Assembly (NCBI GenBank): GCA_029862745.1
Contig: JAOTWS010000002.1
Location: forward strand, 124,001 to 188,000
Origin: Nitrosopumilus sp.
GTDB lineage: Archaea; Thermoproteota; Nitrososphaeria; Nitrososphaerales; Nitrosopumilaceae
Direction of reading: 5' to 3'
DNA: 64,000 nt
The notes beneath the pieces are model-generated. The model was given only the letters and a program-made list of their open reading frames with translations. It had not been told where the DNA came from and did no database searches. A program made the translations under genes and the position numbers. Shown here in pieces: positions 25,389 to 49,644 of this stretch (its first letter is position 1; each line of letters begins with the position of its first letter).

Positions 25389-26036
25389 CTACTCAAAGGA
25401 AGTAGAGGATTGTGACGAAAGTCCAGTTGAAGATGGTACAGATGGAAATTTATCTCCAATCTGTTGCTCAGCTACTGCAGATGCTTCTTGAAGAATCTTA
25501 TCGGTTTCTTCACTTGAAGCAGCAGACTCCATACTAAATGAGTCGCCTGCAAGAGAATCCATCATAAGTCCATTAAGTGTCTGGGTCATGCTATTCAATT
25601 CTGAATCTGCTTCTGGCATGAATCTTCCTAGTGATGACTTCAATCCCTTCATTGTAGACATCGCTGGTCCAATTGCTACCATAGCATCACCAAGATCATG
25701 AATAGTTGTCAGTCTTAGTTGGACTTGCTCTAATGACATTCTTGCATTGCCGAGCATCTTTGTAACTTTACGAATTTCAGCTAATTCGTTAGACAAAACT
25801 CTACTTGTGCTAGTATCATGTTGCTGCATTGCAGTCACGACTCTCTTAAAGAGTTGCGCATCTCTTTCGTGCAGTTTACCTAACATAGAGTCCATTTTTG
25901 AGATTTGGACTTGTAGTTTGTTAACTGCCGTTTGAATTCGTGGTTTTAATGCACCTTGAGGCTTTACTGCTTCACGGAGTTTGCCAGTTACGCCTTGAGT
26001 CTCCTGATGAGCCCAAGTCTTGTTGAAGTTTGGCAT
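25389..26036 (-). CDS. cdvB: ESCRT-III (Snf7) family cell division protein, CdvB paralog 2
   Basis: 215 residues, ATG start. It is collinear with the paralog at 4219-4860 over nearly the full length: FNKTWAHQ, VKPQGALKPRIQ, SNELAEIRKVTKMLGNAR and QVQLRLTTIHDLGDAM each have a clear counterpart. The N-terminal half is the basic helical Snf7 core; the C-terminal half is acidic and ends in the shared FPSVP motif and a Ser-rich tail. It has a less AT-rich codon choice than the first paralog, which may mark higher expression. Role in division-ring assembly with CdvA and CdvC is inferred from the family. Confidence 0.9.
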   Translation of the reverse strand: MPNFNKTWAHQETQGVTGKLREAVKPQGALKPRIQTAVNKLQVQISKMDSMLGKLHERDAQLFKRVVTAMQQHDTSTSRVLSNELAEIRKVTKMLGNARMSLEQVQLRLTTIHDLGDAMVAIGPAMSTMKGLKSSLGRFMPEADSELNSMTQTLNGLMMDSLAGDSFSMESAASSEETDKILQEASAVAEQQIGDKFPSVPSSTGLSSQSSTSFE

Positions 26037-26141: not shown

Positions 26142-26906
26142 GTGGCAAGGATTGTTGTATTTGATTCAGGATTAGGCTCCTTATCTATAATTCAAGCAAT
26201 GCAGGATTTATTCAAATCAGAAATTATCTATTTTGCAGATCAACAGAATTATCCATATGGAAAAAAATCACAAACTCAATTAAACAAAATTATAATAAAG
26301 TCTATTAACCTATTACAAGAACAATTCTTACCAGACATTATAGTTGTTGCGTCAAATACTCCTAGTCTTATGTTTAATTTATCATCAAGAAAAATAATTG
26401 ATGTAAAACCACCATTAGCTTATGCAAAAAAAATATCAAAGTCAAAGGAAATTGCCATATTAGCAACCGAAAATGCAATAAAGAGCAAAGGGTTAAATAA
26501 ATATCTCAAAAAAAATAACCTTTCAAAATCTTTTAAGTTTTTTATAGTAAATGCCTCAGAACTTGTAGAATTAATTGAATCTGGGAAATTTCTTACTAAT
26601 AAAAATTACTGTAAAAAAATTATTAAAAAAATACTTGATCAAATTTTAACTCAACATTCCATAGATACAGTAACACTTTCTAGTACACATTTACCATTTT
26701 TAAAACTATTATTAGAAAAAGAATATCCAAAAATTAAATTTATAGATTCAGGAAATATAGTTGCAAATAAAATTTTTCTGAAAATTAAAAATAAACAATC
26801 AAAAAGAAACTCATTAAAGATTTTCACTTCAGGTGATACTAAAAAATTTCAGAATAAATTAAATAAGATAGGATTGAAAAATAAGGTTAATTTTTTATCT
26901 ATTTAG
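26142..26906 (+). CDS. Glutamate/aspartate racemase-fold protein with both catalytic Cys replaced by Ser
   Basis: 254 residues, GTG start. The MurI layout is clear: IVVFDSGLGSLSI at the N-terminus (D8, S9), YFADQQNYPYGKKS near 30-43, then VVASNTPS and LSSTHLP where MurI has VACNTAS and LGCTHYP. The two catalytic cysteines are therefore S71 and S180. The fold and substrate loops remain, but a two-cysteine racemisation should not work. Archaea of this group have no peptidoglycan, so a changed function (binding, regulation, another amino acid or lyase chemistry) is likely. The C-terminus is Lys-rich and shortened. It is convergent with cbiF, overlapping by 8 bp. Confidence 0.75.
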   Translation: MARIVVFDSGLGSLSIIQAMQDLFKSEIIYFADQQNYPYGKKSQTQLNKIIIKSINLLQEQFLPDIIVVASNTPSLMFNLSSRKIIDVKPPLAYAKKISKSKEIAILATENAIKSKGLNKYLKKNNLSKSFKFFIVNASELVELIESGKFLTNKNYCKKIIKKILDQILTQHSIDTVTLSSTHLPFLKLLLEKEYPKIKFIDSGNIVANKIFLKIKNKQSKRNSLKIFTSGDTKKFQNKLNKIGLKNKVNFLSI

Positions 26907-27657
26907 CTTTTCTGTAACCGTGACTAAATTTTTTATCGTATAATTTAGAATACTCGTATGTCTCAGGATCAATCACATCACTGATAATCACAATTGCAGT
27001 TCTGGTAATTTGTTCATTTTTTACTTTTTTTGCTATTTCTTCAAGTGTTCCTTTAATGATTTTTTGATCTTTCCAGCTTGCATGATAAACAACAGCAACT
27101 GGAGTTGTTTTTTTATACCCACCAGCAATTGCTTCTTTTACTAAGTTTGATATCAAATGAACACTAAGATAAAAGATCAATGTAGCTCTATGCTTTGCGA
27201 GCTCTGAGATTTTTTCACGTTTAGGAACCTTGGTTCTAGATTCTGCTCTTGTAACAATAATTGTCTGAGTTACCCCTGGTAATGTCAATTGAGTTCCAAG
27301 TGCTGCAGCTGAAGCTAAAAATGCTGTTATTCCGGGAATAACAACAGATTTAATTCCATTTTTTTCTAAGTTATCAATTTGCTCTTTGATTGCACCGTAA
27401 ATTGAAGGATCCCCATCATGTAATCTTACTACAAGTTTGTCTTTTTTTGCATTTTTGTACAACAAATCAAAAATTTCTTCTCTTACTAGTTTTGCTGCAT
27501 CATATAATTTTCCTTTTTTACAAAGCTTCAAAATCGGTTGAGGAATTAAAGAACCAGAATAAACCACAATATCTGCTTTTTGAATTAATTTCTTGGCTTT
27601 GACTGTTATTAATTCAGGATCACCTGGACCACATCCAACAAAGAATACCTCAGACAC
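26899..27657 (-). CDS. cbiF: Cobalt-precorrin-4 C11-methyltransferase
   Basis: 252 residues. SAM-dependent methylation at C11 in the anaerobic cobalamin route. Family signatures are FFVGCGPGDPELITVKA at the start, RLHDGDPSIYGAI near 78-90, PGITAFLASAAALG near 109-122 and VTRAESRTKVP near 135-145, which singles out CbiF/CobM among the related methylases. It overlaps cbiL by 8 bp (27650-27657) and is the last gene of the cbiT-cbiL-cbiF run. Confidence 0.93.
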   Translation of the reverse strand: MSEVFFVGCGPGDPELITVKAKKLIQKADIVVYSGSLIPQPILKLCKKGKLYDAAKLVREEIFDLLYKNAKKDKLVVRLHDGDPSIYGAIKEQIDNLEKNGIKSVVIPGITAFLASAAALGTQLTLPGVTQTIIVTRAESRTKVPKREKISELAKHRATLIFYLSVHLISNLVKEAIAGGYKKTTPVAVVYHASWKDQKIIKGTLEEIAKKVKNEQITRTAIVIISDVIDPETYEYSKLYDKKFSHGYRKAK

Positions 27658-28372
27658 GTTTTACCACCAAAATTGAAAAATATTTTGTAGTTAACGTATC
27701 ATCATTTACTTCACCTAAAGTCATTTTTCGAATAATTTCATTTTTTGTTCCAAGATCTTGACCTATCGCAAAAATTGAATTATCTGGGAATCCTGACTCT
27801 TTTAGAACCTCAATTACTTTATCAAAATATCTTCCATCCTTAAGAAATATCATGGATTCAGAATTTTTTGCAATCTCTTTAACACTAGATAGATCATAGC
27901 ACGATGGAATAATAGCAACTTTTTCTGCACCTTCAGCAATGCTTACACCAACTTTAGATGCAAACGTAAACATGGAAACAATTCCTGGTATCACATTAAT
28001 ATCCATATATGGATAGTTTTCTTTTAGATCCTTGTGCATATAGATCCAAGTACTATACAAGTAAGGATCACCTATTGTAAGATACACAACATTTTTTCCA
28101 GTAAGAACTGTTTCAGCCATTATTTTTGCATTCTTTTTCCATGTCGCTTCAAGAATATCCTTATTTTTTGTCATTGGAAAGATTAGCTTTACAATTTTTT
28201 GATTTTTTGATTTATCAATTATAGGTGAAACAACACTAAATGCAATACTTGGTCTATCTTCACTAGAGGCAGGACACATGATAATGTCTGCATTTTGAAT
28301 TGCTTTTACAGCCTTGACAGTGAGCAATTCTACGTCTCCGGGACCTACTCCAATTCCAATCAATCCAGGCAT
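27650..28372 (-). CDS. cbiL: Cobalt-precorrin-2 C20-methyltransferase
   Basis: 240 residues. It methylates C20 of cobalt-precorrin-2. It has the tetrapyrrole methylase start LIGIGVGPGDVELLTVKAV and the YLTIGDPYLYSTW loop, with IIMCPASSEDRPSIA near 31-45, typical of CbiL/CobI. It lies between cbiT (36 bp upstream) and cbiF (8-bp overlap) in one operon. Confidence 0.92.
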   Translation of the reverse strand: MPGLIGIGVGPGDVELLTVKAVKAIQNADIIMCPASSEDRPSIAFSVVSPIIDKSKNQKIVKLIFPMTKNKDILEATWKKNAKIMAETVLTGKNVVYLTIGDPYLYSTWIYMHKDLKENYPYMDINVIPGIVSMFTFASKVGVSIAEGAEKVAIIPSCYDLSSVKEIAKNSESMIFLKDGRYFDKVIEVLKESGFPDNSIFAIGQDLGTKNEIIRKMTLGEVNDDTLTTKYFSILVVKRV

Positions 28373-28408: not shown

Positions 28409-28999
28409 TTACACCTTGGTAGCAGAAATTATTGTTACAGGATTTCTTGCAAGCATCATAGTTCCTGCAGTGGTTTTTCTGCTTTTTGATACTGTTATCT
28501 GAATAATATCCACAAATTCAAAATGCAATTTCTTAAGAACTTGTAACACTGAATAAAATGTCTCAATTAGTATCATACCAATTACAATTCTACCTCCTGA
28601 TCTTAATTTGTTCTCAGAAAGCTCAACTATTTCTTTTGTATCACCACCAGTCCCTCCAATGAATATTGTATCAGCTTCTTCAAGTTCAAGCATCTTTTCT
28701 TTAGCATTACCATAAATTACAGAAATATTTGATATGCCAAATTTTTCTATGTTTTTTTTAGTTAATTCTACAGCATTTTGATCATAATCAATGGCCAATA
28801 CTTTACCCGATGATCCAATTTGAAGTGCAGCTTCAATAGATATAGATCCACTACCACAACCAATATCATAAACTATTTGACCTGGCCTTAATCTTGCTTT
28901 ACTAATTTGAATAGTTCTTATTTCCTCTTTTGTTATTGGAACGTTTTCTGTTCGCTCAAAAAGTTCATCTGGAATTCCAGGAGTTTTGTAATTCCACAT
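28409..28999 (-). CDS. cbiT: Cobalt-precorrin-6B C15-methyltransferase (decarboxylating), CbiT
   Basis: 196 residues. A Rossmann methyltransferase with the SAM loop VYDIGCGSGSISIEAA near 43-58 and the CbiT opening GIPDELFERTENVPITKEEIR. It methylates C15 and decarboxylates the C12 acetate. It is the CbiT half only; the CbiE half that is fused to it in CobL is absent here and not seen elsewhere in the window. First cobalamin gene of this block, directly after a small membrane protein gene. Confidence 0.92.
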   Translation of the reverse strand: MWNYKTPGIPDELFERTENVPITKEEIRTIQISKARLRPGQIVYDIGCGSGSISIEAALQIGSSGKVLAIDYDQNAVELTKKNIEKFGISNISVIYGNAKEKMLELEEADTIFIGGTGGDTKEIVELSENKLRSGGRIVIGMILIETFYSVLQVLKKLHFEFVDIIQITVSKSRKTTAGTMMLARNPVTIISATKV

Positions 29000-47847: not shown

Positions 47848-48589
47848 TTTCTACCTCTCTTGCTCTCTCTGATATCAAATCTATCATTTTTTTATCAGTT
47901 CCTAAATGTTTGGTAATGAAAGTTTTTTCTATATTAGAATTTTTTAGTGCTGGTATCAAATCATTATTTATATCATTTTTTACGTGTGCTCCTTCATGAA
48001 GAAAATAAAAAACAATAACTAGTACTTTTGGATTATCCTTTTCACATTTTTGTATACCTTTAAAAATATCTGGTTGTTCTATTTCCAACCAACATCTACT
48101 TACATTTCTATATGAATTATTTAATCCAGTAACAATATAATTTAACGACATTTGAGCATTAGGATCTTTACTTCCATGCCCTATAATCATTACATCTACA
48201 TCTTTTTTTGGAAGAGTGATTTGATTTTCTTGTAATGTTTTGGATATTCTATTTTCAACAATATCTATCAAAGTTTTGTGCATGCTCATAGGTTTAGTGA
48301 CAACAAATTTTACATTGGTATCTTTTTGGAATTTCATTACATCCGTAACTGCATTCTTTACTTTTTTACCTGGATACAAAAAATAAGGAACTATAGTCAA
48401 AGAATCAATATCTTGTTTGAGACACTTAGTAATTCCATCTTCGATATATGGTGGTTCAACCTCTAGAAAACAAAAATCAACAAACTCATAGCCGCCTTTT
48501 GCATGAATTCCTTTGCAAATTATCTCTAATTCTTCAGAAGCCTCTCTTTCCCTGCTTCCTCTATCAATTAGTAGTAATCCTCTTTTCAA
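47837..48589 (-). CDS. cbiX: Sirohydrochlorin cobaltochelatase, two-domain CbiX with inactive N-terminal half
   Basis: 250 residues, two tandem CbiX domains (about 1-115 and 130-245). It should insert cobalt into sirohydrochlorin. In the second domain both metal-binding His are present (H138 in IIGHGSKD and H202 in HEGAHVKND). In the first domain they are replaced (R10 in IDRGSRE and K76 in PGKKVKN). The catalytic site therefore appears to be in the C-terminal half only. It overlaps cbiG by 4 bp and cbiC by 11 bp. Confidence 0.9.
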   Translation of the reverse strand: MKRGLLLIDRGSREREASEELEIICKGIHAKGGYEFVDFCFLEVEPPYIEDGITKCLKQDIDSLTIVPYFLYPGKKVKNAVTDVMKFQKDTNVKFVVTKPMSMHKTLIDIVENRISKTLQENQITLPKKDVDVMIIGHGSKDPNAQMSLNYIVTGLNNSYRNVSRCWLEIEQPDIFKGIQKCEKDNPKVLVIVFYFLHEGAHVKNDINNDLIPALKNSNIEKTFITKHLGTDKKMIDLISERAREVENAN

Positions 48590-49644
48590 TTCAAAATCCT
48601 CGCTATTGCTATTGTCAAATTTGGTGGGAATTTTTGCTTTTCTACAATCAATTCTCCTCCAGAAACCTTGATGGCTGCAGCTTCAGATACACTTGGAGTT
48701 CCTTCAAACGCTCTTACAGTTTCTGATGGGTTTGGAGCAGAAATCTCATCTAAATCCTCTTTGCTTACATATTCAACAGGAATATCCATTTCTTCTCCAA
48801 GATCTATCAATCCTTGTACATCCTGTGGTTTTTTTATTGAAACAAGTTTTACAACCGACTTTGAACTTAGTTTAAATTTTTCTAAACAAAACTCAATTCC
48901 TTCTTTGATTGTCTCTTTTGTAGTGTCCCAGTGTAATCCAACACCTATCACTAAGCTTGGAGGACGATATATTACAGATTGTTTAGATAACTCTCCATCG
49001 ATTATTTTATCCGAAATTATGAGATATGCTTTAGAGTTTGATTTTTTTAAATCTTGTAAATTTTCATAAATTGAAACATTTTTTGGCAATTCTTTACACC
49101 ATTTTTTATTACCTGCATCTTGAAAAACTCCTATAGGTTCCTCATTTACCATATGTGCACTAATTTTAGTTACGGTTGAATCATCATCGATTTTCCAATT
49201 AAATTCTCTTCCAACAAGATCAACTGCTATAGTTTTGTTAACATCAGCTGCAGTAGTTATTACTGGTAAAGATCCTAATTTTTCTGCTATTTCTTGAGTT
49301 AATTCATTAGCTCCTCCAATATGACCAGATAATACACTAATTACAAAATTTATTTTATCATCAATCACAATTACTGCAGGATCTGTTTTTTTATCTTTCA
49401 AATGAGGTGCAATCAATCTAATTACTGCACCTAATGAAAAAAGACAGATTAATGCATTATTGTTTTTAAAAAGTTCAACAATTTTCTCTGATGTAGGCTC
49501 AGAATACCATATAATCTCATTATCCCCATTTGATAATTTCAAGGGACCAAAAACGCTCCATTCTGGAAATAGTTTTTTTAAATTTTGTCCAATTTTAACT
49601 CCATTTTTGGTAATTGCAAGAACTGAAGTCTTCTCCATACACAA
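48586..49644 (-). CDS. cbiG: Cobalt-precorrin-5A hydrolase
   Basis: 352 residues. It opens the delta-lactone ring and releases acetaldehyde. The N-terminal CbiG domain has FSLGAVIRLIAPHLKDKKTDPA and the SGHIGGANELT loop near 114-124; the C-terminal CbiG domain has VIGVGLHWDTT near 236 and LAxxD-like segments. Full two-domain form, not fused to CbiH. ATGs at residues 1 and 3 are both possible. It follows cbiD by 25 bp and overlaps cbiX. Confidence 0.93.
   Translation of the reverse strand: MCMEKTSVLAITKNGVKIGQNLKKLFPEWSVFGPLKLSNGDNEIIWYSEPTSEKIVELFKNNNALICLFSLGAVIRLIAPHLKDKKTDPAVIVIDDKINFVISVLSGHIGGANELTQEIAEKLGSLPVITTAADVNKTIAVDLVGREFNWKIDDDSTVTKISAHMVNEEPIGVFQDAGNKKWCKELPKNVSIYENLQDLKKSNSKAYLIISDKIIDGELSKQSVIYRPPSLVIGVGLHWDTTKETIKEGIEFCLEKFKLSSKSVVKLVSIKKPQDVQGLIDLGEEMDIPVEYVSKEDLDEISAPNPSETVRAFEGTPSVSEAAAIKVSGGELIVEKQKFPPNLTIAIARILN

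Follow-up and report, generated by a model that had tools for sequence, protein, structure and literature searches.

A MurI-fold protein with serine at both catalytic cysteine positions is conserved in ammonia-oxidising archaea

Introduction

Glutamate racemases of the MurI type (EC 5.1.1.3, TIGR00067) carry two catalytic cysteines, which are Cys74 and Cys185 in RacE of Bacillus subtilis. Proton transfer in MurI is assisted by an Asp, a Glu and a His. A loss of catalytic cysteine is also known from human trans-3-hydroxyproline dehydratase, an enzyme with a fold unrelated to that of MurI. In the MurI mechanism, the two thiols alternate as base and acid (PMC8142540). For OpaE, another enzyme of the superfamily, it was shown that the C90S variant keeps 4.8% of the activity, while C199S and the double variant C90S/C199S keep ≤0.3% (PMC12661438). 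In EcL-DER and MMP0739, Thr takes the place of one cysteine, and activity in one direction is retained or predicted (PMC8142540). In these two proteins, as in the human dehydratase, a hydroxyl residue in place of a catalytic Cys goes along with a changed direction or outcome of the reaction, but only one Cys is replaced and a thiol remains (PMC8142540), whereas the archaeal protein described here has neither. A wild-type enzyme of the MurI fold with both cysteines replaced was not found in our literature searches.

Ammonia-oxidising archaea rank with the most abundant microbes of the ocean and are not known to make peptidoglycan. In 2025, the Nitrosopumilus maritimus protein A9A551 (“GLUR”, K01776) was credited with glutamate-racemase catalytic residues and with a fold matching MurI of Bacillus anthracis, and the use of D-glutamate by ammonia-oxidising archaea was built on this reading (PMC12363236). 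The “glutamate racemase” of ammonia oxidisers was reported to account for 32-72% of the pool of glutamate racemases in deep-sea samples of the Mariana Trench, above all in sediment (PMC12363236). A word search of the main text of that paper found no mention of the catalytic cysteines of the A9A551 protein.

Results

The window, that is, the whole stretch of DNA analysed, comprises 64,000 nucleotides of a Nitrosopumilus sp. genome. It contains an intact open reading frame, free of internal stops on translation, with the following features:

26142..26906, plus strand: Ser/Ser MurI-fold protein (P0001), 254 aa, GTG start (ORF, profile, PDB matches, model)
26163..26180, plus strand: D8-S9-G10-L11-G12-S13 motif (alignment, 181 orthologs)
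26238..26261, plus strand: active-site segment with D33 and P38-Y39-G40, invariant (ortholog alignment)
26352..26354, plus strand: codon TCA for Ser71, which aligns with the first catalytic Cys (alignment; VASNT motif)
26577..26579, plus strand: Glu146, equivalent of the MurI Glu (ortholog alignment)
26682..26684, plus strand: codon AGT for Ser181, which aligns with the second catalytic Cys (alignment)
26685..26690, plus strand: invariant Thr182-His183, corresponding to the TH of the MurI motif GCTH (ortholog alignment)

The 254-aa protein matches the NCBIfam profile TIGR00067 with an E value of 9.5e-32 and 110.4 bits, which is under the curated cut-off of 146.65. Three orthologs exceed this cut-off, all of them in family f12, which is probably Nitrososphaeraceae. 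All PDB sequences matched at E ≤0.001 belong to glutamate racemases, the best of them with an E value of 1.7e-16. The AlphaFold2 model (mean pLDDT 94.1, pTM 0.90) has the two-domain fold of MurI, and in a Foldseek search of this model against the PDB the best matches were all MurI, with TM scores of 0.81-0.88 at 20-25% identity among the top twenty. The profile PF01177 (Asp/Glu/hydantoin racemase superfamily) gave no match for the window protein; its orthologs score 28-41 bits, and one of them passes the cut-off of 31. A Pfam match to PGAP1 (17.7 bits, under cut-off) was treated as noise. Judged by its predicted fold and its homology to MurI, the protein is placed in the Asp/Glu/hydantoin racemase superfamily.

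The first-pass annotation had described a MurI scaffold in which both catalytic cysteines are changed to serine, and profile, PDB matches, model and alignment agree with this description. It correctly assigned the first site to S71 in the VASNT motif, but its second site, S180, has to be moved by one residue. In the alignment of LSSTH (L179-S180-S181-T182-H183), the Cys of the MurI motif GCTH pairs with Ser181, and the exchange of Gly for Ser180 is a separate change, less conserved than Ser181. The protein shares with MurI and RacE the fold, the length and the remaining active-site residues (Asp10, Ser11, Pro-Tyr-Gly, Asn-Thr, Glu152 and Thr-His in RacE), with Asp8 and Ser9 as in MurI. It differs from them in both cysteines and in the DSGxGG motif, the second Gly of which is Ser13 (DSGxGS) in all 181 orthologs. 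Arylmalonate decarboxylase and maleate isomerase are likewise marked by a catalytic Cys, along with family-specific motifs, and the Ser/Ser protein has no Cys at either catalytic position.

By tblastn, 189 of the 250 genomes from the same family gave a match to the gene; among the 131 of good quality, 110 did. Across the class Nitrososphaeria, sequence or profile matches are confined to four families of one order. Judging from named Nitrosopumilus records and from the distribution given in PMC12363236, these four families are ammonia oxidisers. For the conservation counts, 181 full-length orthologs from the four families were translated and aligned. Ser71 and Ser181 are both serine in every one of them, as the earlier annotation had left to be seen from an ortholog alignment, and no close relative keeps Cys. 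Likewise invariant (181/181) are Asp8, Ser9, Gly10, Gly12, Ser13, Asp33, Pro38, Tyr39, Gly40, Thr73, Thr182 and His183, and Glu146 is kept in 180 with a single Asp. Asn72, the position of which we take to be a substrate contact in MurI, is kept in 164; the other 17 have Ile, Met or Val, namely loci L073-L077 and some of those from f12 (such as L059, L063, L071). The variation of this residue may hint that those lineages bind another ligand or bind it in another way.

We mapped 15 active-site positions from MurI structures, and 12 of them are conserved to ≥99%, compared to 7 of the remaining 234 positions (Fisher p 2e-13). The overall identity of the orthologs drops to about 30%, and the active site is nonetheless fixed. 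The median dN/dS is 0.20 (285 pairs with dS 0.1-1.5). Strong purifying selection acts on the protein and is centred on the altered active site. Since nearly all other active-site residues are fixed and the median dN/dS is 0.20, the gene is not decaying, and the earlier view of selection rather than decay is borne out. The serine codons are all TCN at Ser71 and all AGY at Ser181, with zero switching between the two codon families among the orthologs. This pattern fits a single ancient fixation per site and adds no independent events.

In a plasmid collection, the window protein matched only Phyllobacterium zundukense (WP_262291953.1, annotated as “Asp/Glu racemase”) and Fusobacterium vincentii SB055 (unannotated homolog at 733153-733920). 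Both have Ser at the two catalytic positions, a DxGxGS motif and LSSTHLP (TLSSTHLP), and both fall into the same clade as the archaeal proteins. They differ by their 31.5-36% identity, DAG for DSG (DAGxGS), SNAPS for SNTPS and their bacterial hosts. The Fusobacterium record also has a separate MurI with Cys/Cys, which scores over the family cut-off; therefore, the role of cell-wall racemase does not fall to the Ser/Ser protein there. Gene context was considered as a clue to a pathway in these bacteria and rejected: in Fusobacterium the gene is isolated close to rRNA sequence, in Phyllobacterium it is convergent with a PLP enzyme, and neither setting names a pathway. Although listed as a plasmid, the 2.1-Mb Fusobacterium record (L281, NZ_CP084075.1) resembles a chromosome and has genes for pyrimidine synthesis and ribosomal proteins; the plasmid collection includes further records of chromosome size. 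Viral relatives were not found by viral-contig scans and a phage search.

A maximum-likelihood tree was calculated from 52 proteins, comprising 34 Ser/Ser (32 archaeal and 2 bacterial) and 18 MurI-type sequences, with few outgroups and a midpoint root only. The Ser/Ser sequences do not group with MurI but are split from it at 100/100 support, and all 18 MurI-type sequences retain both Cys, one of them from another Thermoproteota lineage (G525, L120). The test of archaeal monophyly without the bacterial members gave an AU p value of 0.12. That Cys was the ancestral state rests on the general use of Cys in the superfamily and not on the midpoint-rooted tree. The Ser/Ser group appears to be a distinct and ancient clade on the MurI fold, fixed in ammonia-oxidising archaea and with members in at least two bacteria. 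What had been noticed in one protein is real but not special to it, being an ancient family trait that extends to the two bacterial relatives.

The genome G088, a single contig of 1,645,259 bp, is presumably that of N. maritimus SCM1. Its ortholog of the window protein (L023, 47725-48474) is Ser/Ser in the alignment. The CdvB-like neighbour in the window is 95% identical to a copy at 48580-49218 of G088 and is probably the ortholog of Nmar_0061; from this neighbour match at 49 kb, the SCM1 gene for the Ser/Ser protein is probably Nmar_0060.

The gene is flanked in the window by the following genes:

25389..26036, minus strand: divergent gene for a CdvB-like (ESCRT-III-like) paralog, at a distance of 105 bp (synteny)
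26899..27657, minus strand: convergent gene for a tetrapyrrole methylase (CbiF/CobM-like), sharing 8 bp with the 3' end of the Ser/Ser gene
27650-28372: CbiL-like gene, next after the CbiF/CobM-like gene
28409-28999: CbiT-like gene, after the CbiL-like gene

At E 0.001 the CdvB-like paralog matches no Pfam family. No other synteny is kept as widely as its divergent pairing with the racemase-like gene, found in three families and, with two small frames in between, in one genome of the fourth; this pairing is old. A link to cobalamin synthesis was rejected, as the CbiF, CbiL and CbiT genes are convergent, not co-transcribed and, in several relatives where the gene still neighbours CdvB, missing from the locus. 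At three f12 loci (L180, L182, L187), a hydantoinase/oxoprolinase A-like gene of about 700 aa (PF01968, PF05378) follows downstream on the same strand. A general co-occurrence of this gene with the Ser/Ser gene was not found across 40 genomes: it is absent from the gene-bearing genomes G088, G086 and G327 and present in G222, G034 and G033, all of which are without the Ser/Ser gene, and it was rejected as a general partner. No neighbouring or co-occurring gene that would name a pathway was found in the loci compared.

In several genomes of Nitrosopumilaceae the gene is broken or missing. In G118 (L082), G174 (L193) and G173 (L081) its frame is disrupted while the CdvB and CbiF genes on either side are intact, and some of the frame breaks in degraded copies could be assembly errors. 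Only an N-terminal remnant is left in G117 (L152), both neighbours are kept but the gene is gone in G006 (L154), and nothing of it was found beside CdvB in G222 (L153). By its distribution the Ser/Ser gene seems to be of advantage in most conditions without being essential everywhere, with losses in some lineages. G026 has two copies (L109, L110) in two similar contexts of CdvB, racemase-like gene and CbiF, one of them frame-broken; duplication or mixed strains are possible.

Discussion

Since neither acid/base thiol is left in the Ser/Ser protein, it is very improbable that it racemises glutamate by the two-thiol mechanism. We put the probability at roughly 0.55 that the Ser/Ser proteins form a distinct clade which has given up this reaction and retains a different chemistry in the same cleft. 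A retained chemistry is suggested because Asp8, Glu146 and His183, the counterparts of residues that assist catalysis in MurI, are invariant together with Ser9, Thr73 and Thr182; a pseudoenzyme would be expected to lose them. The protein would act on a small carboxylate in the MurI cleft, and the hydroxyls of Ser71 and Ser181 would orient or hydrogen-bond the ligand. Alternatively, one serine, Ser181 beside the pair of His183 and Glu146, might be a nucleophile or proton relay. The reaction could be a hydrolysis, transfer, elimination or isomerisation, any of which would need no thiolate base. The most specific form of this idea is a serine-based enzyme, with Ser181-His183-Glu146 as a triad-like nucleophile or relay opposite Asp8-Ser71, found order-wide and in scattered bacteria and catalysing a reaction undescribed in the Asp/Glu racemase superfamily; we regard it as quite doubtful. 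Several points temper the case for retained catalysis: the 17 orthologs with a changed Asn72 mean that the ligand may differ between lineages, the gene is broken or gone in some relatives whose flanking genes are intact, none of the neighbouring or co-occurring genes names a pathway, and the conservation of the active site would also suit a role in binding alone.

Such a role is the main rival, although we consider it rather unlikely. The protein would be a pseudoenzyme that holds glutamate or a related dicarboxylate without catalysis, as a sensor, a carrier or a partner-binding regulator. This would agree with a pocket retained in every ortholog after the loss of its thiol bases, with the essentially inactive double Cys to Ser variant of OpaE (PMC12661438), with the dispensability of the gene in some lineages, and with a most widely kept neighbour that is a divergent ESCRT-III-like gene and not a metabolic operon. 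However, the residues with a catalytic role (Asp8, Glu146, His183) are as invariant as the substrate contacts, and the one residue that varies, Asn72, is itself a contact.

That the protein is a genuine glutamate racemase, which interconverts L- and D-glutamate and allows ammonia-oxidising archaea to use D-glutamate (PMC12363236), seems improbable to us. The proteins in question belong to the same family, and the absence from Nitrososphaeria that do not oxidise ammonia was seen here too. The match to B. anthracis MurI was also obtained in our Foldseek search, most active-site residues are conserved, and EcL-DER and MMP0739 illustrate that one-way activity can remain, or is predicted, with one Cys as Thr (PMC8142540). 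These natural exceptions keep one Cys, whereas both thiols are missing from 181 of 181 orthologs, L023 included, and in OpaE the exchange of Cys199, alone or together with Cys90, left next to no activity. In addition, the window protein scores under the curated glutamate-racemase cut-off and its clade is separate from MurI. The published description states that the catalytic sites are present, but L023 is without the two bases that deprotonate glutamate. The racemase claim for N. maritimus is therefore without a chemical basis.

A decaying relic of a horizontally acquired MurI, to which the degraded or missing copies in G118, G174, G173, G117, G222 and G006 might point, is highly improbable given a gene present in most good-quality genomes of the family, its low dN/dS and an active site invariant over deep divergence. 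The first-pass annotation had proposed selection for a new role; the dN/dS and the invariance bear out the selection, while the new role itself is what we infer.

On the sequence evidence, the Ser/Ser form is a novel variant on a known fold, which removes the chemical basis of the published functional claim. If the protein cannot racemise, the D-glutamate inference of PMC12363236 and metagenome counts based on K01776 need correcting. The conserved Ser/Ser clade spans two domains of life. A proton-transfer site of two thiols that turned into one of two hydroxyls, while the residues supporting it stayed intact, offers a clean case for studying how enzyme chemistry changes.
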